This document shows, in pieces, positions 16,977-31,494 of a DNA stretch of 55,980 bases. Position 1 is the first letter of the stretch; each line of letters starts with the position of its first letter. The DNA is taken from NCBI GenBank assembly GCA_020346465.1, contig CP070783.1, positions 1 to 55,980 of the forward strand, written 5' to 3'. The position numbers and the translations under genes were made by a program. The notes beneath the pieces were generated by a model. That model did not search any database. It was given only the letters and a program-made list of their open reading frames with translations, and had not been told where the DNA came from. This stretch comes from Deltaproteobacteria bacterium. GTDB lineage: Bacteria; Desulfobacterota; Deferrimicrobia; Deferrimicrobiales; Deferrimicrobiaceae.

Positions 16977-19900
16977 TTGAGCCTGTTCGATGAAGCCGTT
17001 CTCATCTTCGACGGAGCCTGCGGGACGAATCTGCAGAGCCGTTCCCTGCCACCGTCGGCGTGGGGGAAACACGAGGGGTGCAACGAATACTTAAACCTCT
17101 CGGCCCCGGAAGCCATCGCGGAGCTGCACGCGTCGTTTCTGTCGGCCGGGGCGATGGTCCTCGAGACGAACACCTTCGGCGCGAACTCCGTCGTCCTCGC
17201 CGAGTTCGGGCTGGAAGACCAGGTGGAGGCGATCAACCGCGCCGCCGTGGAAAACGCCCGGGCCGCCATCGCGGGGCACGGCGGGACCGGGTACGTCGCG
17301 GGATCCATCGGGCCGACGACAAAGCTGCCTTCGCTGGGACATATCTCCTTCGGGGAACTGTCCCGTGCGTACACCGGGCAGGTCCGCGCGCTCGTCGAAG
17401 CCGGGGTGGATCTCCTCGTGTTCGAGACGTGCCAGGACCTCCTGCAGGTGAAGATCGGACTCGCGAGCTGCTTCGAGGAGCTCGCACGGCTCGGCCGGGA
17501 GATTCCCGTCATGGTGTCCCTGACGGTCGAGACCTCGGGCACCATGCTGGTCGGTTCCGACGTGGCGGCGGCGGCGGCAGCCATCGAGCCCTTCCCCGTC
17601 TTCTCGCTGGGACTCAACTGCGCCACCGGACCGGAAGGGATGAAGTCCCACCTCCGGTACCTGGGCCGCCACTGGCCGGGGAGGATCTCCTGCATTCCCA
17701 ATGCGGGCATCCCGCGGGTCGTCGGGGGACAGACGGTCTACCCTCTCTCGCCGGAGCGGTTCGCGGCGGAGCTCGGGGCGTTCGTGGCCGAGGAGGGGGT
17801 GAGCATCGTGGGCGGCTGCTGCGGCTCGACCCCGGACCACATCCGCCGCCTCAAGGAGGCCGTGGACTCCGTGCGCCCCGCCCCGCGGGCCCCGCGCTGG
17901 AATCCGTCCCTGTCGAGCCTCTACCAGGCCGTGGAGATCCGGCAGGAGATCCCGCCGCTCCTGATCGGGGAGCGGGCGAATGCGAACGGGTCGCGGCTGT
18001 TCCGCGAGCGCCTCCTCGCGGACGACTACGACGGGGCGCTTGCGATCGCCCTGCAGCAGCAGGAGGACGGCGCCCATGCCCTGGACCTCTGCACGGCGTA
18101 CGCCGGCCGGGACGAGAAGGCGGATCTTTCGGCCCTGACCCGCCTGTTCGCCCACTCCGTCCGCGTCCCCACCGTCATCGACTCGACCTCGCCGGACTGC
18201 ATCGAGGAGGCCCTCCGGATCCACCCGGGGAGATGCCTCATCAACTCCATCAACCTCGAGGACGGCGGGAAGAACCTCGACCGGATCTGCCGGCTGGCGA
18301 AACGGTACGGCGCCGCCGTGGTGGCCCTGACCATCAACGAAGCGGGCATGGCGATGACGGCCGGGGAGAAGCTGGCCACGGCGAAAACGATCTACGACCT
18401 GGCGGTCCGCGTGCACGGGCTGCGCCCGGGCGACCTGCTGTTCGACATGCTGACCTTCACGATCGGCTCGGGCGACCCGTCCCTGGGGAACGCGGCGGCG
18501 GAGACGATCGAGGCCGTCCGGCGGGCAAAGGAGGAGCTGCCGGGCTCCTTCACGCTCCTGGGGGTGAGCAACGTCTCCTTCGGTCTTTCCCCTGCCTCCC
18601 GCCGGGTCCTCAACTCGGTGTTCCTCCACGAGGCGGTCGAGGCGGGCCTCGACGCGGCGATCATCGACGCCGCGAAGGTCCTCCCGCTGGCGAAGATCCC
18701 CGAGGAGGACCGCCGCGTCTGCCTCGACCTGATCTACGACCGGCGGGCGGAGGGCGCAACGCCGCCGCTGGAGGCGTTCATCGGGCATTTCGCCGAAACG
18801 GCGGCGGAGGGGCAGCAACGCCCTGCCGCGGAGAACGGCGCCGTCCCCCCCCCGGAGAGTTCCCTCACCGGCAAGATCGTCGCCGGCGACCGGGAGGGGC
18901 TCGAGGACCTCCTGTCGATCCTGCTCTCCCGGCGGCCGGCCGGGGCGGTGATCAACGAGATTCTCGTGCCGGCCATGCGGCACGTGGGGGAGCTGTTCGG
19001 GCGCGGGGAGATGCTTCTCCCGTTCGTGCTCAAGTCCGCGGAGGTGATGAAACGGTGCGTCGATCATCTCCAGCCCTTCCTGACGGGAGCCGACCGGGAC
19101 ACCGGCCGCAAGGTCCTTCTGGCGACCGTCGCGGGGGACGTGCACGACATCGGAAAGAACCTGGTCGACATCATCCTCTCCAACAACGGGTACCGCGTGG
19201 TCAACCTCGGCATCAAGGTCCCCGCGGAGACGATCATCCGGGAAGCCCGCGAACACAACGTGGACGCGATCGGCCTGAGCGGCCTTCTCGTCAAGTCCGC
19301 CATCATCATGAAGGAGAGCATGCCGCAGTACCGGGAGGCGGGGCTGTCCATCCCCATCCTCCTCGGCGGAGCGGCCCTCACGGAGAAATTCGTGGCCGAG
19401 GAGTGCGTGACGGGATACGGAGGGAAGGTCGTCTACTGCGCAGACGCCTTCGCGGGGCTTGCGGCGATGCAGGAGCTGGAGGCCGGCACGCTCGAGTCCA
19501 CCACGTACCGGGAGACGGGGAGGAAGGTGACCGCGCCGGGGCGGAGGGAAGCGAGGATCTCCCGCGGGAAACCCGCTCCCGTCCCCCCCTTCCTCGGACC
19601 GCGCCACGTCACGGAGATCGGGACGGAGCTCCTGTTCCCCTACGTCAACGAGCAGGCGCTGTTCCGGGGGCGCTGGGGATACCGGCGGGCGAAGATGGAG
19701 GCCGAGGAGTACCGCCGGCTCGTCGAGGGGACGGTGAAGCCGATGTACGAGGAGCTGAAGCGCCGGTGCGTGGAGGAGAGGCTCTCCCGCCCGATGGTCG
19801 CCTACGGATATTTCCGGTGCCATTCCGAAGGCGACACCCTCGTCGTGCAGCATGACGGACGGGATTTCCCCTTTTCGTTCCCCCGCCAGAAGAACCCGCC

Positions 19901-20354
19901 GCACCTGTGCATCGCCGACTACTTCCGGACGGCGGCCGAGGGCGGCGACGTCGTGGGGTTCTTCGTGGCGACGATCGGGGAGCGGTTCGGGCAGGCGACG
20001 CGGGAGCTGTTCGAAGCGAACCGGTACCACGACTACCTGATGCTGCACGCGCTGAGCGTCGAGCTCACCGACGCGCTGGCCGAGTACTGGCACGAGGTGA
20101 TGCGGCAGGAGCTCGGCATCGCGGGACAGAAGCCGTCCGGGCCGGAAGGGTACGTCGTCCAGGAGTACCAGGGGTCCCGGTACGGGTTCGGCTACCCCTC
20201 CTGCCCGGACCTTTCGGCCCACAGGCCGGTGTTCGAGCTGCTCCGGCCCGGGAGCATCGGGGTCACGCTCACCGAATCGATGGAAATGGTGCCCGAGCAG
20301 ACCACCTCGGCCATCGTCGCGCACCATCCCCAGGCGAAGTATTTCGCCGTGTAG
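16977..20354 (+). CDS. metH: Cobalamin-dependent methionine synthase
   Basis: MetH moves a methyl group from methyl-tetrahydrofolate to homocysteine through cobalamin. All four modules are present in ~1125 residues: homocysteine/zinc domain (~1-300, ending VGGCCGST), pterin domain (~320-600, [14 protein letters not shown]), B12 cap and binding domain (~630-870, with [13 protein letters not shown] carrying the cobalt-ligand His), and the SAM-dependent reactivation domain (~900-1125, [12 protein letters not shown]). The TTG at 16977 follows AAGGAAGGGG and is preferred over a TTG at 16932. A rubredoxin gene follows after 20 bases. Confidence 0.96.
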
Positions 20355-20374
20355 ACGCACGGAGGAAGGAACTT

Positions 20375-20536
20375 GTGAAGAAGTACATCTGCAGCAACTG
20401 CGGGTACGTGTACGACCCCGCGACGGGCGATCCGATGGGGGATATCCCCCCCCACACGGCCTTCGAGGACCTTCCGGAGAGCTGGGTGTGCCCCATGTGC
20501 TACTCGCCCAGGTCGCTCTTCGACGAACTGGAGTAG
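20375..20536 (+). CDS. Rubredoxin
   Basis: This 53-residue iron protein carries one electron. It has the two Cys knuckles CSNCGY (N-terminal) and CPMC (C-terminal) around [28 protein letters not shown], as in rubredoxins. The second knuckle is followed by [11 protein letters not shown] rather than the usual GVGK. The GTG start has GGAGGAAGG eight bases upstream. It lies 20 bases after metH and 3 bases before the methyltransferase/MTHFR gene, so it belongs to the one-carbon operon. Confidence 0.9.
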
Positions 20537-20539
20537 GCG

Positions 20540-22390
20540 ATGGAACCGATCCTCGACCGGATGAGGAGGTCCCCGATCGTCTTCGACGGCGCCATGGGGA
20601 CGATGATCTACGAGCGCGGGGTCTTCATCAACACCTGCTTCGACGAGCTCTGCCTGACGAACCCGAAGCTCATCAGCCAGATCCACGGCGAATACATCGA
20701 GGCCGGGGCCGAGGTGATCGAGACGAACACCTTCGGGGCCAACCGCATCGCCCTCCGGCCGTACGGGCTTGCCGAGAGGGTCCGGGAGATCAACCGGGAG
20801 GCGGTGAGGATCGCCCGGGAGGCCGCGGGGGATTCCGTGTACGTCGCCGGCGCCGTGGGCCCCTGCGTGCGTCCGGACCAGATCATGCCGGACGAGCACG
20901 CCGTCGAGGTGGAGGAGGCCTTCGCCGAGCAGATCGGGACGCTGGTCGCGGAAGGGATCGACCTCGTCGTGCTGGAGACGTTCACCCACCTGAAGGAGAT
21001 CCGGCTGGCCGCCCGGACGGCCCGGAACCTCGGGGCCCCGGTGCTTGCGTCCTTCGCGCTGAACGACCGCGGGGAGACGGCCGTCGGGATGAAGGCGGGC
21101 GCCATCGCCCAGGCGCTCGACGCCGACGACAACGTGGACGCCGTCGGGATCAACTGCGGGACCGGCCCCGCCGGCGTCTTCGACGCCCTGCAGTCCGTCC
21201 TTCCCCTGGTCACCAAGCCGGTCGTCGTCATGCCCAACGCGGGATTCCCCCGCGACGTCGGGGGGCGCCTGCTCTATCTCACCAGCCCGGAATATTTCAC
21301 GGAGTACGCCAAGAAGTACATCGAGCTGGGGGTTCGCGGGGTCGGCGGCTGCTGCGGGACCACCCCGGCGCACATCCGCGTGGCCGGGCGGGCGGTCAAG
21401 TCGCTCAGCGGCGTGAAGAAGCACGTGGAGGTCCGGCCCCTCACCCAGCAGGGGGTCCTGGTCCAGGTCATCCCCGCCGCGAGGAAGTCGCGGTTCGCCC
21501 GCAAGATGCTCGGCGGCGAAAAGGTCACCTCCGTGGAGATCGTCCCCCCGCGCTCCAGCGACCTCTCGGGGATGCTCGCCAAGGTGAGAAAATGCGCCGA
21601 GGCGGGGATCGACGCGATCAACATCCCCGACGGGCCGCGGGCCAGCGCCCGCATCTCCCCGATGATCGCCGCCATCACCATCCTCAGGGAGGTCGGCATC
21701 GAACCGATCCTCCACTACTGCTGCCGGGACCGCAACCTCATCGGGATGCAGTCGGATCTCCTCGGCGGGTACGCGGCCGGGCTGGCGAACTTCCTCATCA
21801 TCACGGGGGACCCCCCCAAAGTGGGAGACTACCCCCAGGCCACGGGGGTCTTCGACGTGGACGCGATCGGCCTCACGCAGGTGACGGCCAACCTGAACCG
21901 GGGCTTCGACATCGGCGGGAACCCGATCGATCCCCCGACCGGCATCTTCATCGGCGTCGGGGCGAATCCGTGCGCCGTGGACATGGAGAGGGAGATCGAG
22001 CGCTACTTCCGCAAGATCGACGCGGGCGCCGAGTACGCCATCACCCAGCCGGTCTTCGACGTGGAGGCCCTGTTCCGCTTCCTGGACCGCGTGGAGACGT
22101 ATGAGCGGCGCATCCCCGTCATCGCGGGAGTCTGGCCGCTGGTCAGCTTCAAGAACGCGGAGTTCATGAACAACGAGGTGCCCGGCGTGGTCGTCCCCCG
22201 GAAGATCCTCGACCGGATGGCCCGCTGCCGCACCAAGGAAGAGGGCCGCCGGGCCGGGGTCGACATCGCAAGGAGGACCATCGAGCGGATCTCCCCCCGC
22301 GTGTGCGGGTTCCAGGTGAGCGCACCCCTGGGCAGCGTGGAGACCGCTCTCGCCGTCCTGGGAAGAGGCCGGCTCGAAAAATCTCCCTAG
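20540..22390 (+). CDS. Bifunctional homocysteine S-methyltransferase / methylenetetrahydrofolate reductase
   Basis: This is a 616-residue fusion like Bacillus YitJ. Residues ~1-290 are a zinc-dependent homocysteine methyltransferase: [33 protein letters not shown] and GVGGCCGTTPAHIR with the zinc Cys pair. Residues ~325-600 are an MTHFR barrel: VTSVEIVPPRSSD, FLIITGDPPKVGDYPQATGVFDVD, GANPCAVDMEREIERY and GAEYAITQPVFD. It makes methyl-tetrahydrofolate for MetH. The methyltransferase half duplicates MetH's first domain. It sits 3 bases after rubredoxin, with GGAG upstream. Confidence 0.93.
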   Translation: MEPILDRMRRSPIVFDGAMGTMIYERGVFINTCFDELCLTNPKLISQIHGEYIEAGAEVIETNTFGANRIALRPYGLAERVREINREAVRIAREAAGDSVYVAGAVGPCVRPDQIMPDEHAVEVEEAFAEQIGTLVAEGIDLVVLETFTHLKEIRLAARTARNLGAPVLASFALNDRGETAVGMKAGAIAQALDADDNVDAVGINCGTGPAGVFDALQSVLPLVTKPVVVMPNAGFPRDVGGRLLYLTSPEYFTEYAKKYIELGVRGVGGCCGTTPAHIRVAGRAVKSLSGVKKHVEVRPLTQQGVLVQVIPAARKSRFARKMLGGEKVTSVEIVPPRSSDLSGMLAKVRKCAEAGIDAINIPDGPRASARISPMIAAITILREVGIEPILHYCCRDRNLIGMQSDLLGGYAAGLANFLIITGDPPKVGDYPQATGVFDVDAIGLTQVTANLNRGFDIGGNPIDPPTGIFIGVGANPCAVDMEREIERYFRKIDAGAEYAITQPVFDVEALFRFLDRVETYERRIPVIAGVWPLVSFKNAEFMNNEVPGVVVPRKILDRMARCRTKEEGRRAGVDIARRTIERISPRVCGFQVSAPLGSVETALAVLGRGRLEKSP

Positions 22391-22926: not shown

Positions 22927-24960
22927 TCACTTCCTCTTCAGGATCCGGTCCAGGGCGTCCTGCGACGACTTCAGGAGCTCCCGGCTCAATTCGACGTTGT
23001 GGGTTCCCCGCCCGTTGCTGACGATCCCGTAGTTCGTCTCGGCCCCTTTCAGGAGCTTCTTTTCCGCTTCCACGTTCGTTCCGATCTTTTCGGTGCGATC
23101 GAGATACTCCCTCGCCTCCTCGATTCCCACCGCGATGGCGTTCTCCTTGGCGGTGATCTCCTCCTTCCAGCCGAGGAGCATCGTTCCGTACTTTTCGCTG
23201 TGGCACTCCTCGCACTTCCCCTTGACGGTGAGGACCGTCTGGGTCCCCTTCTTGAGCTCGTGGCATTCGGTGCACACGATCCCCGCCTCGGCCATCACGT
23301 CGGGGCTCGGGGATACGCCGAACGGCTTCACCTTCCCTTCGTACAGGGCCTTGTGGGCCTTGTGGCAATGTCCGCAGTCGATGTCGCGGCTTTCGTGGTG
23401 GCACGACATGCACTCGGACTTCGTGACGATCCGCATCTTGTGCTTGTCCGGGGAGTGGCACTTGGTGCACTCGATCCCGACGTCCTCGACGTGCAGCGCG
23501 TGGGGGAAGCGCACCTCCATCTCCTGGAAGAAGAGGTCTTTCGGCGGCTGGACGCGCTGGTGGCACAGGGTCATGCAATAGGCGGACGAACTCGCCAGGA
23601 TGGCGGGGCGGGGAGGCCCCCCGGAGACGCCCGCGGTCTTGTGCGCCGCGGAGACCTGTGCGTACCCTTCCCTCACGATCTTGTAGGCGTACTCGATGTT
23701 GTGGGCTCCGCGCCCGGCCTTGAGCAGGTCCAGGTTGGCGCGGGCATCCGCCACCAGCGCACGGGCGTCCGCGATCTTCTTCGATTTCGCGGGGCCCTTC
23801 CCGACCGCCGCCTCCCCGGAGGCGACGATCGACCCCATGTCGGCGACGAGGAGGCGAGAGGCGCGGATCCAGTCGTCGAGCATCCGGTCGTAGTTCTTCC
23901 CGTGGCAGGCAACGCAGCTTTGCCGCTCGGCCGTCAGCTTCCTCTCGCCGGGGAAGGCGACGCCGGACTCGAGCACCTCCACGGACTTCGTGTGGCACCC
24001 GTCACAGGAAACCTGTGCCGAGAACATCCTCGAGGGGGTGTCGGCGACGCCCCGCGCGCCCGCCCCCATGTACATCTCCTTCTGGTAGTTGTGGAGCCTC
24101 TGGTGGCAGGAGTCGCACTGGACCTCGAAGGTCTTGACCAGCTCGACCTCCCCGTGCCGGATCTTCTCGTGGCACATGAGGCACTTGATCGCGTTGTAGG
24201 TGACGTGCGTCCGGTGCAGCGCGAGCGGGTCGGACTTGCCCTTGAGCCTGCCGACGTGGCAGTCGTAGCAGTGTTTCTCGTCGACCCGGCCGTCCCCCTC
24301 CGCCACGCGCAGGTGGCACTGCTTGCACTGCACGCCGATCTTCAGGTAGGAGTCGTGGGAGAAGGTGAACCCGCTGTGGTCCACCGTCTTCTTCGGGGTG
24401 CCGTGGCACCCGGGGCACCCGCCCAGGGCCTGCCCCTGGCTGATCCCCTTGAAGTGGCAGAGGAAGCAGACGTTCGTGTCGACCGAGATGTGCTCCCCCT
24501 GGACGATCGAGTAATGGCACGTCGTGCAGCGGAGCTGCTCGCCGCGCTTGAGCTTCGTCATGTGCTCCTGATGGTCGAAGAGGATGGCGCCGAGCTTGGC
24601 CTTCCCCTGCTCGATCCGTCCCTCGTGGCAGCCCGAGGACAGGCACTGCTTGTCGGGGACATTGGCGTGCGGCCTCGGGTGGTAGAGGCCGGTCCAGTAC
24701 TTGAGCGTCGTCACGGTGATGAACAGCGGAGAGAAGGAGTGGCACTTGATGCACGAGACGTCCGCGTGCCGGGAGGTCTTCCACTGGTCGTAGAACGGGT
24801 CCATGTAATGGCAGACGACGCACGACTTGGGGAAGTAGGCGGCGACGAAGAATGCCCCGTTGAACAGGATCAGGACCCCCAGCGCCACCGCCCCGATCGC
24901 CAGGAGCGTTTTCCGGTACCGGACGACGAGGTCCCACCAGGACAGGAACATCTCTTTCAT
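22927..24960 (-). CDS. Membrane-anchored multihaem cytochrome c, NapC/NirT-like N-terminus (~18 haems)
   Basis: The 677-residue protein has a single N-terminal membrane helix (LLAIGAVALGVLILFNGAFF, ~20-40). This is followed by CVVCHYMDPFYDQWKTSRH and CIKCH, which resemble NrfH/NapC quinol dehydrogenases. I count 16 CxxCH sites plus one CX3CH (CMTLCH) and one CX4CH (CLSSGCH). Two haem-free helical segments share a GRGxHNxE pattern (middle GRGAHNIEYA, C-terminal GRGTHNVELS), suggesting internal duplication. Last gene of the cytochrome operon; its ATG overlaps the preceding cytochrome b stop (ATGA). It probably passes quinol electrons into the periplasm; the acceptor is unknown. Confidence 0.88.
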   Translation of the reverse strand: MKEMFLSWWDLVVRYRKTLLAIGAVALGVLILFNGAFFVAAYFPKSCVVCHYMDPFYDQWKTSRHADVSCIKCHSFSPLFITVTTLKYWTGLYHPRPHANVPDKQCLSSGCHEGRIEQGKAKLGAILFDHQEHMTKLKRGEQLRCTTCHYSIVQGEHISVDTNVCFLCHFKGISQGQALGGCPGCHGTPKKTVDHSGFTFSHDSYLKIGVQCKQCHLRVAEGDGRVDEKHCYDCHVGRLKGKSDPLALHRTHVTYNAIKCLMCHEKIRHGEVELVKTFEVQCDSCHQRLHNYQKEMYMGAGARGVADTPSRMFSAQVSCDGCHTKSVEVLESGVAFPGERKLTAERQSCVACHGKNYDRMLDDWIRASRLLVADMGSIVASGEAAVGKGPAKSKKIADARALVADARANLDLLKAGRGAHNIEYAYKIVREGYAQVSAAHKTAGVSGGPPRPAILASSSAYCMTLCHQRVQPPKDLFFQEMEVRFPHALHVEDVGIECTKCHSPDKHKMRIVTKSECMSCHHESRDIDCGHCHKAHKALYEGKVKPFGVSPSPDVMAEAGIVCTECHELKKGTQTVLTVKGKCEECHSEKYGTMLLGWKEEITAKENAIAVGIEEAREYLDRTEKIGTNVEAEKKLLKGAETNYGIVSNGRGTHNVELSRELLKSSQDALDRILKRK

Positions 24961-25898
24961 GGGTTGGGCACCTCCGCCGCCTTCTGCTTCGACCTCTTTG
25001 CCATGATCTCCTCGTACTCGAGCGGGTGCTCCTCCTTCATCTCATGCTCGGAGATCTGGCCGTGCCACCACATGAGGGTCCCCGGGAACCGGTCGGGGTT
25101 GAAGTGGACGTTGTAGAAATGCCAGATGACGATCGCCAGCGTGGCGAGCATCGCCTCGTCGCTGTGCATCTCGTGGGCGACGTCCAGGACGTACTTCGGG
25201 AAAAACTTGAGGACGATCTCCTCGCCCCAGAGGAAGACGCCCGAGCCGATCATGATGACGCATCCCCAGTAGACGGCCCAGTAGTCGAACTTCTCGATGT
25301 AGCTGAACCGGCCGAACCGGGGCTTCTCCCCCGTCTTCCCCAGGAAGTGGCGGACGTTCTGCACCGCGTCCCGGGCGTCCTTGGGGGTGGGGATCAGGAG
25401 GATGAAATCCCGCCGGCCCTGCCGGGAGAACACCGTGTAGAAGAGGTGGTGCACCATGAAGTAGATGAGCATCCCGGCGCCGATCCGGTGGACGATCGTG
25501 GCGTTGTGGATCCCCCCCCACATGTTCACGAGGAACCGGGAGAGCACGAACTCCGGGAACTTGATCGGCATCCCGGTGATGACCAGGATGATCACCGAGG
25601 TGAACATCACGATGTGCTGGAAGCGGAAGTTCCGGTTGAACCTCTCGAACATCTCCCCTTCCTCGTGGAGCCTCTCCCGCCGTTTCTCCTCGCGGCGCCT
25701 CCGCTCCTCCGCCCTGCGTTCCGCGGCCGTGCGGATGCGTCTCTCCCGTTCCACCTCCTCGAGGACGCGGGCGCGCACCTTCTCCCGGATCCTCCCGGCT
25801 TCGGCAGGGTCCAGGCCGGCGGTCTCCTCGTCAACCACGGACTCGACCTCCCGTTCCAGGGTATCCTGCTTCGACTCCTTCTTGTCGTTCGCGGACAT
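24957..25898 (-). CDS. Cytochrome b (b561-like) with charged coiled-coil N-terminus
   Basis: This 313-residue protein has an unusual first ~90 residues: highly charged, Arg/Glu-rich, predicted long helix (EREVESVV, RRAEERRRREEKRRERL). Membrane helices with haem-binding His follow: FQHIVMFTSVIILVITG, HRIGAGMLIYFMVHHLFYTVF, YWGCVIMIGSGVFLW and LATLAIVIWHFYNVHF. The end HPLEYEEIM matches the other two cytochrome b units in this operon. The start at 25898 (MSANDKK) has a GGGGGAAGGA site. It overlaps the next gene by four bases and lies 51 bases after the 9-haem cytochrome. Confidence 0.87.
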   Translation of the reverse strand: MSANDKKESKQDTLEREVESVVDEETAGLDPAEAGRIREKVRARVLEEVERERRIRTAAERRAEERRRREEKRRERLHEEGEMFERFNRNFRFQHIVMFTSVIILVITGMPIKFPEFVLSRFLVNMWGGIHNATIVHRIGAGMLIYFMVHHLFYTVFSRQGRRDFILLIPTPKDARDAVQNVRHFLGKTGEKPRFGRFSYIEKFDYWAVYWGCVIMIGSGVFLWGEEIVLKFFPKYVLDVAHEMHSDEAMLATLAIVIWHFYNVHFNPDRFPGTLMWWHGQISEHEMKEEHPLEYEEIMAKRSKQKAAEVPNP

Positions 25899-25949
25899 GC
25901 GTTCCTTCCCCCGCTCGTGGTTTCGCCCCCTGCGCATCGACGGCGACGT

Positions 25950-27014
25950 CTACTTGTCGCCGCGCAATCTTCTGGTCCGCCCGTACATGTCGAGAAAGAT
26001 GTGCGCGATGAGGGCGAGCATGGTGCCGATCGTGAGGTACTTGAAGAATTGCGCGGTGTAATAGATGATCCCGGATTCCTTGCTGTGGGAGTCGACGTGC
26101 ATCTTCCCCACGGCGAAATTGGGGTTGGCCCCGGGGTGGCATTTCCCGCACGTCGCGGGAATGTTCTTCGGGTTGACCATGGAGCGCGGGTCCTCCGACG
26201 GCCGGATGTCGTGGACGCCGTGGCACGAGGCGCAGTTGGCCACGGTCCGGGAGCCGAAACCGCTCGCCACCCCGTGGAACGAGTTCTGGTAGGTGGTCAC
26301 CTGCTCCGCCTCGATCCCGTACTTGCTCATGATCGACACGGAGCCGTGGCACGTCGAGCACTGGGCGGCCACGTGGGTCGCGAACACGGTGGACTTGGGG
26401 TCCTTGTGGGCGTAGATCTTGTGCTCCCCGTGGCATCCGGTGCACGACGGGGCCTCCGGGATCCCCTGGGACACCGCCACGCCGTGGATCGACGTCTTGT
26501 ACACCGCGTAGATCTCGATGTGGCACCGCCCGCACGTCTCCGCGACATTCCCGCGGGAGACCGCCGATGTCGGGTCCTTCGTCTTGTGGATGGAGTGGTT
26601 CCCGTGGCAATCCTGGCAAAGGGGCGCCTTCGTGTTCCCACCGGCGATCGCGTTGCCGTGGACCGAGCCGAAGTACTCCAGGTACGCGTCGGACTGGGGG
26701 GCCCCTTCCGCGTTCCCCTTGTAGTGGCAGTGGGTGCAGGTCACGCGCTGCGGGCGCTGCCGGTGGGGGATCTCGCTCACGTCGAAATGGCAGTCCACGC
26801 ACGTCTTTTTTTCGTGGACGGACCCCTTCAGGCTGTCCGCCGTCGCAAACAGGTCCCGGATCTTCCCGTCGACGAGGATCTTCCGGAACTCCGGCTTCCC
26901 GTGGCAGAGCGTGCACTTTTCCAGCGAGATCCTGGCATCCGCCGGGAACCAGAAACCCTGGGCGATGACCCCCAGGGCGATGAAGATCGCTGCTGCGAGG
27001 AACGTCCCCCTCAT
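25950..27014 (-). CDS. Nine-haem cytochrome c with C-terminal membrane helix
   Basis: The 354-residue protein has a signal-like N-terminus (FLAAAIFIALGVIAQGFW), nine CxxCH sites, recurring SxHG motifs (FGSVHGNAIA, KTSIHGVAVS, QNSFHGVASG) and DP-S spacers, then a C-terminal membrane helix (LTIGTMLALIAHIFLDMYG). Its last two haems (VANCASCHGVHDI and ATCGKCHPGANPNFAVGKMH) are nearly the same as in the other two cytochromes upstream. The ATG at 27014 overlaps the cytochrome b stop as ATGA. It probably hands electrons between its partner cytochrome b and the periplasm. Confidence 0.9.
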   Translation of the reverse strand: MRGTFLAAAIFIALGVIAQGFWFPADARISLEKCTLCHGKPEFRKILVDGKIRDLFATADSLKGSVHEKKTCVDCHFDVSEIPHRQRPQRVTCTHCHYKGNAEGAPQSDAYLEYFGSVHGNAIAGGNTKAPLCQDCHGNHSIHKTKDPTSAVSRGNVAETCGRCHIEIYAVYKTSIHGVAVSQGIPEAPSCTGCHGEHKIYAHKDPKSTVFATHVAAQCSTCHGSVSIMSKYGIEAEQVTTYQNSFHGVASGFGSRTVANCASCHGVHDIRPSEDPRSMVNPKNIPATCGKCHPGANPNFAVGKMHVDSHSKESGIIYYTAQFFKYLTIGTMLALIAHIFLDMYGRTRRLRGDK

Positions 27015-27715
27015 ATCACCCCTTCTCCTTTGAGTTTCTCGTATTCCGCGGGATGCTCCTGCCGGAGCCACTCGGCGTCCACCTTCCCCGTCAGCCACGC
27101 CCGGTTCATCGGAAAGACGGACGGGTGCAGGTGGACGATGTACAGATGCCAGAAGAGAAGGATCACGAAGGCGAGCAGGCCCTGGTACCCGTGGACGATG
27201 AGGGTCAGGTCGAGCACGACTTTGGGGAGGTACCTCATGGAGAACGTCTCGGCCCAGAGGATGATCCCGGTCACGGAGATGAGGAAGACGCCGGTCGTCG
27301 CCCCCCAGTACTGGAACTTCTCCTTGTACCCGTACCTCCCGAAGCGGGGGTATTTGCTGTCCATCCCGAGGTTGAACCGCATCGCCAGGAAAAAGTCGTC
27401 GAAATCCCGCCTGGTGAGCCAGACCTCCCGCAACTCCCGTTTCCCCTCGCGGGAACAGAGCATGTAGAAGGCGTGGTAGACGAGCTGGGCCATCAGGAAG
27501 ACGGCGGCGGACCGGTGGATGATGCCCCGGTAGAGCACCCCGCCCTCGAGGCGGATCACGGCCGCCGCGAGCCAGTTGTCGTGGAACATCAGCGCAAAGC
27601 CGGTCACGGCGAGGACGAGGAGGGAAACCATCAGCAGGATGTGCTGCACGCGGAACAGCACCGACATCCGTTCCACGGTCACGGGGCTGCGGGGTTCTTC
27701 GCCCATCGGGGTCAT
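27011..27715 (-). CDS. Cytochrome b (b561-like), stand-alone
   Basis: This 234-residue membrane protein has four to five helices with conserved His: VQHILLMVSLLVLAVTGFAL, HRSAAVFLMAQLVYHAFYML, VFLISVTGIILWAE and LIVHGYQGLLAFVILLFWHLYIVHLHP. It shares FGRYGYKEKFQYWG and QEHPAEYEKL with the two other cytochrome b units in the operon. The start at 27715 follows GGAGGG and overlaps the upstream 11-haem gene by ATGA. It is the likely menaquinol-facing membrane partner of its multihaem neighbours. Confidence 0.9.
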   Translation of the reverse strand: MTPMGEEPRSPVTVERMSVLFRVQHILLMVSLLVLAVTGFALMFHDNWLAAAVIRLEGGVLYRGIIHRSAAVFLMAQLVYHAFYMLCSREGKRELREVWLTRRDFDDFFLAMRFNLGMDSKYPRFGRYGYKEKFQYWGATTGVFLISVTGIILWAETFSMRYLPKVVLDLTLIVHGYQGLLAFVILLFWHLYIVHLHPSVFPMNRAWLTGKVDAEWLRQEHPAEYEKLKGEGVI

Positions 27716-28968
27716 CCCTCCGTCTTTCCCGCCTTCGCTTTGCCGCGGCGGTGCCTCCCCAGCAGGTCCATGGCCACGTGCAGGACGAACAGGGTGACGA
27801 GCGTGCCGATGAAGATCGTGTAGAAGACGCGGACGGCGAACACGCCCATCGCCTTCTCGGGGCTCACCTCGACGTGGATCATCCCCTTGGCGAAGTTCTC
27901 CCCCGCGTTGGGGTGGCACTTGCCGCAGGTCCTGGGCAGGTTCGCCTTGTTGACCGGGGACGCGGGGTCCGAGGCCGGCAGGATGTCGTGGAAGGCATGG
28001 CAGGAAGCGCAGTTGGCCGCCTTGGTCATCCCGTATTCCAGGGCGATTCCGTGGAACGAATCCATGTAGCTGGAGAACCGCTTCTTCGGCAAGGCGTACC
28101 GGGAAGAGATCGCCTCCTTGTCGTGGCATGCCGAGCAGGTCCGGGGGACGTTTTTCACATAGACCGACGAGGCGGGGTCGGAGATCTTCGTGATCGTGTG
28201 CTCCCCGTGGCAGTCGGTGCACACGGGGGACTCCGCGATTCCCGCGCGCATCCCTTTCCCGTGCACGGAGCGCTCGTACTTCTCCAGGATGCCGGAGTGG
28301 CACTTGCCGCAGAGCGACGGGATGTGCTGCCGGTGGGTGGCGGACCGGGGCTGGTCCCCCGGGAGAATCAGGTGGTTCCCGTGGCAGTCCGTGCAGACCG
28401 CGGAACCGAGGAGGCCGGATTTCCTTGAGGCCATCCCGTGGACGCTCTCCCGGTACGCCGCCATCATCTTCTCGTCGGGCAGGTCGTACCTCTCCTCGAT
28501 GACCCGGTCTTCGTGGCACTCCAGGCAGACCCCGACGATGTTGAGCCGGAACGTGCGCGCCATCGGGTCCTGCACCTTGCGGATGTCGTGCTTGCCGTGG
28601 CAGTCGCCGCACCCCGGCACGTCCGGGTTCCCTTTCGCGCGCACGATCCCGTGGGTGCTCTGGGCGTACGACTTCGCCGCCTCCGTGTGGCATCGTCCGC
28701 ACGAAACCGGGGACAGCTTGCCGTGCGGCGCCTTGGCGTCCACGTGGCACGCCGTGCACGCGGCCTTCCCGTGGGTCGACGACCGGTACGCCTTCCCGTC
28801 GACGAACAGCGACCGGACCGTCCCGTCGGGCATCGTCATTTCGATCGTCTTGTCGCCGTGGCACTCCTGGCAATCCCCGACCGTCGGGCCCGCGTTCCCC
28901 GCCGTGGCCATGCCCCCTACCGCGGCCGCCAGGAGTCCGGCCATCACGAACGATCGCAACGGTTTCAT
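27712..28968 (-). CDS. Eleven-haem cytochrome c with C-terminal membrane helix
   Basis: The 418-residue protein has a signal peptide (FVMAGLLAAAVGGMATAG), eleven CxxCH sites, repeated STHG/SVHG/SFHG motifs that probably give distal His ligands, and a C-terminal helix (TIFIGTLVTLFVLHVAMDLL) that anchors it. The last two haem segments (NCASCHAFHDILPASDP, TCGKCHPNAGENFAKGMIH) match the cytochromes on either side. GGAGGAGAA lies before the ATG at 28968, which overlaps the stop of the fusion gene. It pairs with the cytochrome b encoded next. Confidence 0.9.
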   Translation of the reverse strand: MKPLRSFVMAGLLAAAVGGMATAGNAGPTVGDCQECHGDKTIEMTMPDGTVRSLFVDGKAYRSSTHGKAACTACHVDAKAPHGKLSPVSCGRCHTEAAKSYAQSTHGIVRAKGNPDVPGCGDCHGKHDIRKVQDPMARTFRLNIVGVCLECHEDRVIEERYDLPDEKMMAAYRESVHGMASRKSGLLGSAVCTDCHGNHLILPGDQPRSATHRQHIPSLCGKCHSGILEKYERSVHGKGMRAGIAESPVCTDCHGEHTITKISDPASSVYVKNVPRTCSACHDKEAISSRYALPKKRFSSYMDSFHGIALEYGMTKAANCASCHAFHDILPASDPASPVNKANLPRTCGKCHPNAGENFAKGMIHVEVSPEKAMGVFAVRVFYTIFIGTLVTLFVLHVAMDLLGRHRRGKAKAGKTEG

Positions 28969-31013
28969 TTCTCCTCCGTCAGCAGCGTGCTCGTTCCCGG
29001 GATCCCTTCTCCTCCGTGCCGTTCCCGCTCCTCGATCTCCTCGAGTTCGAGCGGGTGCTCGTGCTCCATGTGGTGGCGGGACAGCTTCCCGTCGATCCAG
29101 GTAAACGACATGGGAGCGAAGTCCGGGTTGATGATCACGTAGTACAGGTGCCACACGAAGATCGCCAGGGTGGCGAGAATCGCCTCATAATAGTGGACCA
29201 GGGTGGCGACGTCCAGTCCCCACATCGGGATCCGCTTCAGGGTCTCGTTCTCGAACCAGAGCATGAACCCCGTGACGACCATGACGATCGTGCCCCACAC
29301 GAGGGCGAGGTATTCGGCCTTCTCCACGTAGCTGTACCGGCCGAACTTCGGCTTGTGGTCGGAGATCCCGATGTAGTACTGCAGCATCGCCACGACGTCC
29401 AGCGCGTCCTGCCAGCGGGGCATCATCCTTGCCAGCTGGTCCCGCCCGCGCTCCGTGAAGATGGCGTAGAACATGTGGTACACGGAGGTCGCCACCATCA
29501 CGATCGCGGCCGCCCGGTGCCCGTCTCCCCGAAGGGCGACGTTCGTCGCGTCCGACAGGAACGGGATCGACCACTTGAACTTGAGCGCGAACCCCGTGAC
29601 GACGAGGACGAAGAAGCTCGACAGCGTCAACAGGTGCTGGATCCGCTCGGAGCGGTTCAACCGCTCGTAGCCGGGGTGCGACCACTCCTGTCTCTCCCGG
29701 TAGAGGGCCTGCATCTTCCGGAGGTAGTCGGCCCCGTTGTGGAGGACCATCCCCCCGATGACGACGACGATCAGCCAGATGTAGATGTTCTCCACCCAAT
29801 ACTTGACGGTGCCCCCGATCCCGCCCGCGCCGGCGTGGATGTTCCCCTTGGCGAAGTTCTCCGTCGCGCCGGGGTGGCACTGCCCGCAGGTCACCGGCAG
29901 GTTTTTCGGGTTCACCGTGGAGCGCGGGTCTGCCGTCGTGAAGATCTCGTGCACGCCGTGGCAGGAGGAGCAGTTCGCCACGGTCCTGTCGCCCAGCCGC
30001 TGGGAGAGGCCGTGGAAGCTGTCCCGGTACCCCTTGACCTTGTCGGTCTGGACGCCGTACCGGGCGGCGAGCTTCTCGGCGGCGTGGCACGAGGGGCACG
30101 TCTTCTCGGAGATGGCCATGAAGGAGACCGCGGAGCGGGGGTCATCCGCCTGCCGGATCTCGTGCTCCCCGTGGCACTCGGTGCATCCCGGGGCGTCGGG
30201 TACGCCGCGGGCCAGCGCCACGCCGTGCACGCTCTCGCGGAAGATCGTGTAGACACCGTAGTGGCATTTCCCGCACGTCTCCGGGATATTCGTCCGGTAG
30301 ATGGGGGAGAGCGGGTCGAACCGGTCCTTGAGATCGTGGGCGCCGTGGCAGTCGACGCACGAGGCGGATTTGTTCAGCCCCTTCTCCACGATCGCCTTGT
30401 TGTGGATGCTCTTCTCGTACATCCTCGCCGCGCCGGGGATGGCGATCCCCCCCTGTTCGATCACCTCCCGGTTCCCGTGGCACCGGGTGCACGTTGCGGC
30501 GATATTCCGGAAATAGACGGGGGACGAGGAAAGAGACGACTTGGGGATCGCGTGCGCCCCGTGGCAGTCCGAGCAGCGGGGAGCCTCGATCCCCGCCATC
30601 CTCTTGTACCCGACCACGTGCCGGCTCTTGGCGTACACGGCCGCCTCCCCGGAGTGGCAGCCGGAGCAGTCGACCGCCTTGAGCCGCGCCGTGTGCGGCA
30701 GGTCCGAGACGTCCGCATGGCAGTCCGTGCAGGAGAGGTCCGCGTGCACCGAAGCCTCATACAGCCCGGCGTCCACATGGAGGCTGATCCCCGGGAAGGG
30801 AGAGGCGACCCGGTGGGGCCTTTCCGGCCCCCCAGGGGTCACGTTCGACTCCCTGTCCTCGGCCGACCAGGAGAGGATGTCCCGGTCTCCGTGGCAGTCG
30901 AGGCACTCGGAGTTTTCCATGGCCCGCAGCGAAGAGGGGCCAGACGCGAGCAGGAGTGCAACTGCCCCGACGAGACCGACAATGCGGATTCTTCCCCGGT
31001 GCAAGGGGAACAT
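28965..31013 (-). CDS. Fused multihaem cytochrome c - cytochrome b
   Basis: The 682-residue protein has a signal helix (~11-31) and eleven CxxCH sites between residues 37 and 380. A membrane helix follows (~404-424), then a full cytochrome b part (~455-640) with His at about 460, 499, 513, 607 and 622. The layout recalls Geobacter CbcL (a c/b fusion tied to low-potential metal reduction), but haem number and context must be compared. It fuses what the next genes encode separately. The ATG at 31013 has GGAAAGGAAGGG upstream; it is first in the operon. A palindrome at 31100-31114 lies in the promoter region. Confidence 0.9.
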   Translation of the reverse strand: MFPLHRGRIRIVGLVGAVALLLASGPSSLRAMENSECLDCHGDRDILSWSAEDRESNVTPGGPERPHRVASPFPGISLHVDAGLYEASVHADLSCTDCHADVSDLPHTARLKAVDCSGCHSGEAAVYAKSRHVVGYKRMAGIEAPRCSDCHGAHAIPKSSLSSSPVYFRNIAATCTRCHGNREVIEQGGIAIPGAARMYEKSIHNKAIVEKGLNKSASCVDCHGAHDLKDRFDPLSPIYRTNIPETCGKCHYGVYTIFRESVHGVALARGVPDAPGCTECHGEHEIRQADDPRSAVSFMAISEKTCPSCHAAEKLAARYGVQTDKVKGYRDSFHGLSQRLGDRTVANCSSCHGVHEIFTTADPRSTVNPKNLPVTCGQCHPGATENFAKGNIHAGAGGIGGTVKYWVENIYIWLIVVVIGGMVLHNGADYLRKMQALYRERQEWSHPGYERLNRSERIQHLLTLSSFFVLVVTGFALKFKWSIPFLSDATNVALRGDGHRAAAIVMVATSVYHMFYAIFTERGRDQLARMMPRWQDALDVVAMLQYYIGISDHKPKFGRYSYVEKAEYLALVWGTIVMVVTGFMLWFENETLKRIPMWGLDVATLVHYYEAILATLAIFVWHLYYVIINPDFAPMSFTWIDGKLSRHHMEHEHPLELEEIEERERHGGEGIPGTSTLLTEEK

Positions 31014-31099
31014 GGTCGCTCCCTTCCTTTCCCTGTGAGAATGATTGGGCTGGTTCAATGCGGCATCCCTATTTGCGACCCATTACGATTATTGTCGAC

Positions 31100-31114
31100 T
31101 GTATACATAATACA
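31100..31114 (-). promoter_or_regulatory. TGTATAC palindrome upstream of cytochrome operon
   Basis: TGTATACATAATACA matches 12 of 15 positions of the operator-like palindrome before gltA (16814-16828). It lies 87 bases before the cytochrome start codon. Confidence 0.5.
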
Positions 31115-31175
31115 TCGCAGGCCAAGAATCAAGACGAATTTTCCTTTCCCGGACGGTTTTTTCACCACTTATGTT

Positions 31176-31197
31176 GAAAAATTCTGTAGAAAAATTC
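31176..31197. repeat. Tandem GAAAAATTC repeats
   Basis: Two exact 9-base copies (31176-31184 and 31189-31197) are separated by TGTA, in an otherwise GC-rich region upstream of the cytochrome operon. Possible activator or repressor site. Confidence 0.4.
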
Positions 31198-31391
31198 GAC
31201 GGTGCGCCCGGGGCAGGGGTAGCAACCCCGGGGCGGAGCATCCTTCCGGCACGTACCGGTGGAACCGGGAATCCCCGCAGGAGATTCCAAGGGGGCGGAA
31301 ACCGGCTCCGGAGATGGGACCTGTTTTATCCGGTTGAAAACCATCTCTCCTTGGGGGGTTAGAAGAATTTCCTTTTTTTCCCCTCTTTTCC

Positions 31392-31456
31392 TTGACAGCC
31401 CAAACCGGACACCATATCTTGTATCCGTGATAATCCTCGACCACAAGATACGCTAT
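31392..31456 (+). promoter_or_regulatory. nrdJ promoter with NrdR-like boxes
   Basis: TTGACA (31392-31397), 17 bases, TATCTT (31415-31420). ACACCATATCTTGTAT (31409-31424) matches 13 of 16 positions of the NrdR box consensus as I recall it and covers the -10. A weaker second box lies at 31441-31456, about three helical turns on, the usual NrdR spacing. Confidence 0.6.
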
Positions 31457-31494
31457 CATTAAAGTAGGATAATACCTGCAGGGGAGCAGCCACG

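Follow-up and report, generated by a model that had tools for sequence, protein, structure and literature searches.

A six-gene multihaem cytochrome operon

The stretch of DNA analyzed here (the window; 55,980 nucleotides, positions 1 to 55,980 of contig CP070783.1 in GenBank assembly GCA_020346465.1) comes from a member of the Deferrimicrobiaceae and carries an operon of multihaem cytochromes c and b-type cytochromes. It is a minus-strand run of six co-directional open reading frames, reading from 31013 to 22927 in the order c1b1, c2, b2, c3, b3, and c4 (Table 1). As described in an initial annotation of this DNA, three cytochrome b units each lie behind a 9- or 11-haem cytochrome c, with the first pair fused. 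The operon proteins hold 47 strict CxxCH motifs, and the two variant motifs of c4, CMTLCH (CX3CH) and CLSSGCH (CX4CH), bring the number of c-haem sites to 49, the figure estimated at the outset. Counting the CX3CH motif of c4 is reasonable because ImcH homologues also have this atypical motif (PMC6295460). Outside the six genes, no open reading frame with at least two CxxCH motifs was found in the window.

Pfam models assigned PF01292 (b561-type) to c1b1, b2, and b3 and generic multihaem models to the c units, with c1b1 matching PF01292, PF14537, and PF14522. No iron-sulfur (FeS) protein was found among the six genes by Pfam, and an NCBIfam scan of the operon proteins gave no equivalog above the cut-off. 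Four gene junctions are 4-base overlaps, and the c3-b3 gap is 12 nt as listed. Because the b3 proteins of relatives are mostly 304-313 aa long, with a larger c3-b3 gap, and because Met14 (25898) is preceded by GGAAGG, a better ribosome-binding site than that of the listed start, b3 probably starts at 25898 and would comprise 313 aa. The region upstream of c1b1 presumably holds the operon promoter; a scan of 31014..31494 for sigma-70-like promoters gave no minus-strand match. A plasmid search gave no match.

Table 1. Genes and other features of the operon, with window coordinates
Feature	Position	Strand	Description
c1b1	28965..31013	-	682 aa; 11 CxxCH; C-terminal b561/FdnI-type domain; signal peptide
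c2	27712..28968	-	418 aa; 11 CxxCH; signal peptide; C-terminal anchor helix with His397
b2	27011..27715	-	234 aa; b561/FdnI-type cytochrome b with four transmembrane helices; PF01292; partner of c2
c3	25950..27014	-	354 aa; 9 CxxCH; signal peptide; C-terminal anchor helix with His338
b3	24957..25937	-	326 aa as listed; b561/FdnI-type cytochrome b with four transmembrane helices; PF01292; charged N-terminal extension
c4	22927..24960	-	677 aa; 16 CxxCH, CX3CH, and CX4CH; uncleaved N-terminal NapC/NrfH-type anchor
5' region	31014..31494	.	481 nt; common to the operon and a divergent ribonucleotide reductase gene
b-unit motif segment HKPKFGRYSYVEK	29319..29357	-	c1b1 residues 553-565; FGR(Y/F)xYxEK

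Homology, age, and conservation of the c-b modules

The initial annotation regarded haem segments common to the three c units as a mark of kinship and derived the set from repeated duplication of a c-b module. With the cysteines and histidines of the haem motifs masked, c1/c2, c1/c3, and c2/c3 still aligned at 39-43% identity over ~240-356 residues (E-values of ~1e-42 to 5e-48). Because the alignment persists after masking, the likeness among the c units, judged by sequence, is true homology that goes beyond the haem motifs alone. From the fourth haem on, the haem spacing is near-identical in c1 and c2 (28-44-28-30-28/29-42-28), and c3, with two haems fewer, nearly agrees with it. The b units are 35-38% identical in pairwise comparisons (E-values of 6e-46 to 5e-57).

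Trees were computed for 83 b domains and 73 c domains. The CbcL-like proteins in them are the 9-haem fusions of the phylum, Geobacter CbcL itself not being among the tree sequences, and the lineage label 'Myxococcota' on L063-L066 was ignored as an artefact that goes back to the former name Deltaproteobacteria. In the b tree, b1 (support 99/98), b2 (99/99), and b3 (99/92) form separate clades, and the c tree contains c1, c2, and c3 groups that match them (Shimodaira-Hasegawa-like approximate likelihood ratio test support of 85, 99, and 91, respectively). The b1 clade, composed of c1b1-type fusions, covers more than 10 phyla, and each of the three b clades holds the window's family, its sister family, NC10, Zixibacteria, and the unclassified BMS3Bbin03; the c2 clade includes the first four of these. 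Both trees set the phylum's 9-haem fusions, as a clade, apart from the 11-13-haem c1b1 type. Since the same three clades occur in the b and c trees, the triplication is, on this phylogenetic evidence, ancient and older than the spread over these phyla, and the c and b partners were inherited together. The duplication scheme thus holds as regards three homologous modules, but not as a local or recent event. A recent local triplication leaving modules of redundant function would agree with their adjacency and homology; nevertheless, it is extremely improbable, given that both trees place every module in a multi-phylum clade of its own and that identity is 33-40% between modules, compared with 64-88% per gene across the family.

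At least seven genera of the family, as well as G024 from a second family of the class, have the same six-gene order with 11-11-9-16 CxxCH motifs; in one assembly, 8 of the 9 CxxCH motifs of c3 were found. Most six-gene loci adjoin a gene that matches the ribonucleotide reductase gene of the window in size and orientation. Further afield, an NC10 genome (L075) carries c1b1-c2-b2-c3-b3-c4 and a second c4-like gene, and a Zixibacteria contig (L082) ends after the first five genes. Conservation of the six genes over so many genera rules out chance. Parts of the set also occur separately: c1b1 alone in G005, c3-b3-c4 alone in G025, and a set without c2 in BMS3Bbin03 (L089), while G055 has matches to c3, b3, and c4 in order. 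The fixed stoichiometry that the initial annotation had drawn from the 4-base overlaps is not supported, because these separate subsets argue against it as an obligatory feature; the set is modular. Of the 395 genomes sampled from the phylum, 46 contain c4-type proteins at an E-value of 1e-70, those outside the class being mostly relatives with 31-36% identity, and no second c4 match was found in the window's genome.

In several relatives, a convergent cluster accompanies the operon (L044:14793-18900, L046:12359-16457, L052:2416-6527, and L060:4953-8945), comprising cytochrome b6-like and PetD-like genes and genes for 9-haem and 11-haem NapC-like cytochromes. In G025, the b6-like/PetD-like cluster lies elsewhere on the contig; it is absent from this place in the window. 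The c1b1-type fusions of other phyla often adjoin a gene for an ImcH-like protein of ~500 aa with three transmembrane (TM) segments, a NapC-type region, and 6 CxxCH motifs, a recurrent pairing of CbcL-type and ImcH-type proteins (L117:7664-9169, L119:7477-9000, and many loci in Acidobacteria and Omnitrophota). A sister family of fusions (L121, L110, L112, L108, and L132), often encoded beside c1b1-type genes, comprises proteins of 700-1000 aa that combine 19 haem motifs with a b domain; this domain groups near split 19-haem c and b pairs of Ignavibacteria and Acidobacteria. Elsewhere in the window, two adjoining genes (16977-22390), both starting with a homocysteine methyltransferase-like domain, encode by our reading a 1125-aa MetH-like protein and a 616-aa putative homocysteine methyltransferase/methylenetetrahydrofolate reductase fusion.

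Haem ligands, membrane histidines, and the terminal protein

The c domain of c1b1 contains 11 invariant non-motif histidines for its 11 haems (positions 90, 107, 132, 154, 204, 226, 263, 284, 334, 355, and 393). There are likewise 11 such histidines in c2 (10 invariant and one present in at least 70% of sequences) and 9 in c3 (8 invariant and one in at least 70%). One conserved distal histidine per c haem is the pattern of a wire with no open catalytic haem, and it fits c1-c3 as bis-His electron wires and not catalytic reductases. The c half of c1b1 matches HAO structures at Z ~8 and gives profile matches to HAO, octahaem nitrite reductase, and MccA, as could be expected if the multihaem proteins included a catalytic HAO/NrfA-type reductase of a nitrogen or sulfur compound. 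However, Z ~8 lies within the reported background of the tool, the matches are partly due to the haem motifs, and distal histidines are conserved for all c1-c3 haems, which makes such a reductase very improbable; HAO-like catalysis was rejected on the grounds of this background-level score and of c1-c3 haems that all seem to be bis-His coordinated.

The AlphaFold2 model of c1b1 (39 sequences; predicted local distance difference test, pLDDT, 81.4) comprises a helical c domain, a long anchor helix (398-440), and four TM helices (454-479, 488-519, 562-586, and 597-627). FdnI of formate dehydrogenase-N (1kqf_C) was the sole significant Foldseek match to the b half, and VIA-align placed it first with Z 16.3, the next match reaching Z 11.1. 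Sequence comparison also aligned b2 with FdnI (E-value 3.5e-12), and the conserved H175 and H190 of b2 correspond to FdnI H155 and H169, which are haem ligands in the FdnI structure. Five TM histidines of c1b1 (H425, H460, H499, H607, and H622) are invariant in 102 of 102 fusions, a set that covers many phyla and takes in the 9-haem CbcL-like group, and have equivalents in b2 and b3 and, for the anchor helix, in c2 (H397) and c3 (H338). A further histidine in TM2, H513, is kept in 85 of 89 c1b1-type proteins and 2 of 8 CbcL-like proteins. Because H425 sits in the c anchor helix and has these c2 and c3 equivalents, the anchor helix of the c unit seems to be part of the working site of the b unit. 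The anchor-helix histidine, found in every fusion compared and in the split units of this operon, provides a structural prediction that can be tested across the CbcL family as a whole.

In the b2-FdnI alignment, the FGR(Y/F)xYxEK motif common to the b units falls on the FdnI loop GKYNAGQK (107-114), which presumably lines the menaquinone site on the cytoplasmic side. Its residues Y562, E564, and K565 are kept in 88-89 of 89 c1b1-type fusions and also occur in the 9- and 19-haem fusions.

Residues 19-77 of c4 match NrfH (2j7a_C), and its first haem motif is CxxCHxM, with Met53 kept in most relatives. We read c4, from its sequence, as a putative inner-membrane quinol dehydrogenase of the NapC/NrfH type with an extended haem wire; with 16-18 haem motifs instead of four, it would be a NapC-like module in a larger protein rather than a member of the NapC family. 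The initial description of a NapC-anchored protein of ~18 haems at the end of the operon agrees with the NrfH match, the CxxCHxM motif, and the 16 + 2 haem motifs. Of the two helical-hairpin regions in c4, the C-terminal one (residues 493-671) matches 6i5b_A, which we take to be the surface cytochrome OcwA, and c4 also has two S/T-P-S/T motifs, at 308 and 550. Both features would suit an Fe(III) reductase located in the outer membrane or at the surface and supplied with electrons by the membrane complex. Begmatov et al. (2022, PMC9386147) proposed such a role for their 16-haem protein, citing a weak similarity to MtrA and the presence of three S/T-P-S/T motifs. We nevertheless consider it unlikely, because the N-terminus of c4 combines an uncleaved hydrophobic anchor with a NapC/NrfH-type CxxCHxM haem directly after it, a sign of an inner-membrane quinol dehydrogenase, the operon contains neither a porin nor a lipoprotein gene, and two S/T-P-S/T motifs in 677 residues are weak evidence.

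Proposed electron flow and comparison with known systems

Taken together, these features suggest, with a probability of roughly 70%, that the operon encodes inner-membrane oxidoreductases between quinone and periplasmic multihaem cytochromes, three of the CbcL type and one of the NapC/NrfH type, which serve metal or other extracellular respiration. Each c-b pair (c1b1, c2 with b2, and c3 with b3) would form a CbcL-type unit: a four-helix bundle of the diheme b type would hold a quinone site close to the cytoplasmic face, and the anchor helix of the c unit would join this bundle to a periplasmic wire of 9-11 bis-His c haems. The fourth quinone-reactive unit would be c4, a NapC/NrfH-type protein with an inner-membrane anchor and ~18 haems. 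During metal reduction, menaquinol would be oxidized and electrons would pass from the b haems through the c haems to soluble periplasmic cytochromes and, in the last step, to an outer-membrane conduit encoded elsewhere. The link to quinone, initially drawn by analogy with Geobacter Cbc proteins, is favored in a specifically CbcL-like form by the FdnI fold and the conserved TM histidines.

Several points weigh against this proposal. It is based on sequence and structural models, and the AlphaFold2 model of c4 is weak (pLDDT 64.6). The FdnI quinone-site residues, which we take to be Asn110 and Gly112, are not conserved as such in the b units. The operon has no porin-cytochrome partner gene (outer-membrane beta-barrel and decahaem cytochrome), and a search of the genome for MtrB/PioB (TIGR03509) gave no match, as was also the case in control genomes. 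In addition, the CbcL/MtrH/MtoC family also occurs in iron oxidizers (MtoC), and its sequences do not separate the two directions of flow (PMC6295460). Electrons could therefore run inward, with extracellular or periplasmic donors reducing quinone at the cytoplasmic face in reverse flow, iron oxidation, or syntrophy. We regard this as improbable, since the lineage has been predicted to be an organotrophic iron reducer (PMC9386147) and the genome also carries alternative complex III (ACIII)-like clusters that fit quinol oxidation. The host is a probable iron reducer.

The energy yield of metal respiration is set by inner-membrane quinol oxidases, and Geobacter employs distinct loci (ImcH, CbcL, and CbcBA) depending on the acceptor potential. 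In the operon described here, three CbcL-type modules that diverged long ago have stayed linked to a NapC-type module, and this holds in several uncultivated phyla, which offers a ready set for asking whether they form one complex or a potential-tuned ladder. It is conceivable, though rather doubtful, that the six proteins form one standing assembly of ~55 haems, in which three different CbcL-type modules and the NapC-type one, tuned to different potentials, draw on the quinone pool from either face of the membrane and feed a shared periplasmic wire. In such an assembly, the anchor-helix histidines (c1b1 H425, c2 H397, and c3 H338) and TM2 H513 would supply each unit with one more ligand, for haem b or for quinone, than the FdnI set contains.

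Among known systems, the closest architecture is that of the CbcL/MtrH/MtoC family, which spans 15 phyla and 3-23 haem motifs with the same c-anchor-b arrangement (Zhong and Shi, PMC6295460). In c1b1, the N-terminal multihaem c domain (11 haems), the anchor helix, and the HydC/FdnI-type b domain agree with it, and the signal peptide, helix 398-440, and four TM helices correspond to the approximately six TM helices of the family. Conserved TM histidines and bis-His c haems are also common to both. CbcL passes electrons to PpcA and has bis-His c haems and two b haems (PMC9129911); Geobacter CbcL has 9 c haems (PMC9129911), compared with 11 in c1b1, and, unlike CbcL, the operon contains two further modules split into c and b genes. 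Protein c4 resembles NapC, NrfH, and CymA in its single N-terminal anchor, the CxxCHxM motif of haem 1, and its NrfH-like sequence, but differs from them in having ~18 haems instead of 4 and added helical segments, which resemble 6I5B at the C-terminus.

The Geobacter Cbc3, Cbc4, Cbc5, and Cbc6 complexes, proposed to be menaquinol:cytochrome oxidoreductases (PMC11434368), share with the operon a membrane cytochrome c/b make-up. However, Cbc4 consists of b, FeS, and c subunits, whereas the operon has no FeS protein, and Cbc5 consists of three c and one b cytochromes with CbcE, whereas the operon encodes four c proteins (one b-fused) and two b proteins with no other membrane protein. Other loci of related composition were also noted. 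In the window's genome, a second c-b pair (L043:6927-11924; G000:C1 ~1203926-1208923) encodes a 13-haem c, a b561-type b only distantly related to b1-b3, NrfD, FeS subunits, and a 4-motif protein, and adjoins a gene for a cache-domain histidine kinase. Another locus (L155:8336-10174; G000:C1 ~1802335-1804173) encodes a protein of 612 aa that has 12 CxxCH motifs besides its three TM segments and is possibly an ImcH-like quinol oxidase.

The initial annotation could not name this layout, but it has a described counterpart. Gene cluster 1 of Candidatus Deferrimicrobium borealis SHF-111 (MBNT15) comprises four multihaem c genes with 9-16 motifs and two genes for cytochromes b with four TM helices; three of the c proteins have a signal peptide and TM helices, and the fourth has 16 haems (PMC9386147). 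Matched by description, the operon looks like this cluster: its 11, 11, 9, and 16 CxxCH motifs together with b2 and b3 give the same gene and haem make-up. The 16-haem protein of D. borealis has three S/T-P-S/T motifs and c4 two, a single-species detail rather than a family criterion. The window's genome also carries two ACIII-like clusters and, apart from them, an FeS/NrfD/multihaem cluster, all of the kinds described for SHF-111 (PMC9386147). One of the ACIII-like clusters (L152:6198-18705; G000:C1 ~1492197-1504704) is accompanied by two counter-oriented NrfD/FeS/multihaem operons and resembles SHF-111 cluster 4. On these grounds, the window very probably belongs to the MBNT15/Deferrimicrobiota lineage, and the operon is very probably cluster 1. 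The published account treats the first gene of cluster 1 as one for a c cytochrome and proposes an outer-membrane reductase role for the 16-haem protein, with no mention of a fused b domain, of paralogy among the modules, or of the NapC-type N-terminus of the 16-haem protein (PMC9386147). The gene cluster is thus known from a relative, whereas its three-fold modularity and multi-phylum spread were not found spelled out in the literature consulted. The present analysis adds that the cluster is composed of a NapC-type module and three CbcL-type modules of ancient divergence, that this set is conserved across phyla, and that the anchor-helix histidine is invariant.

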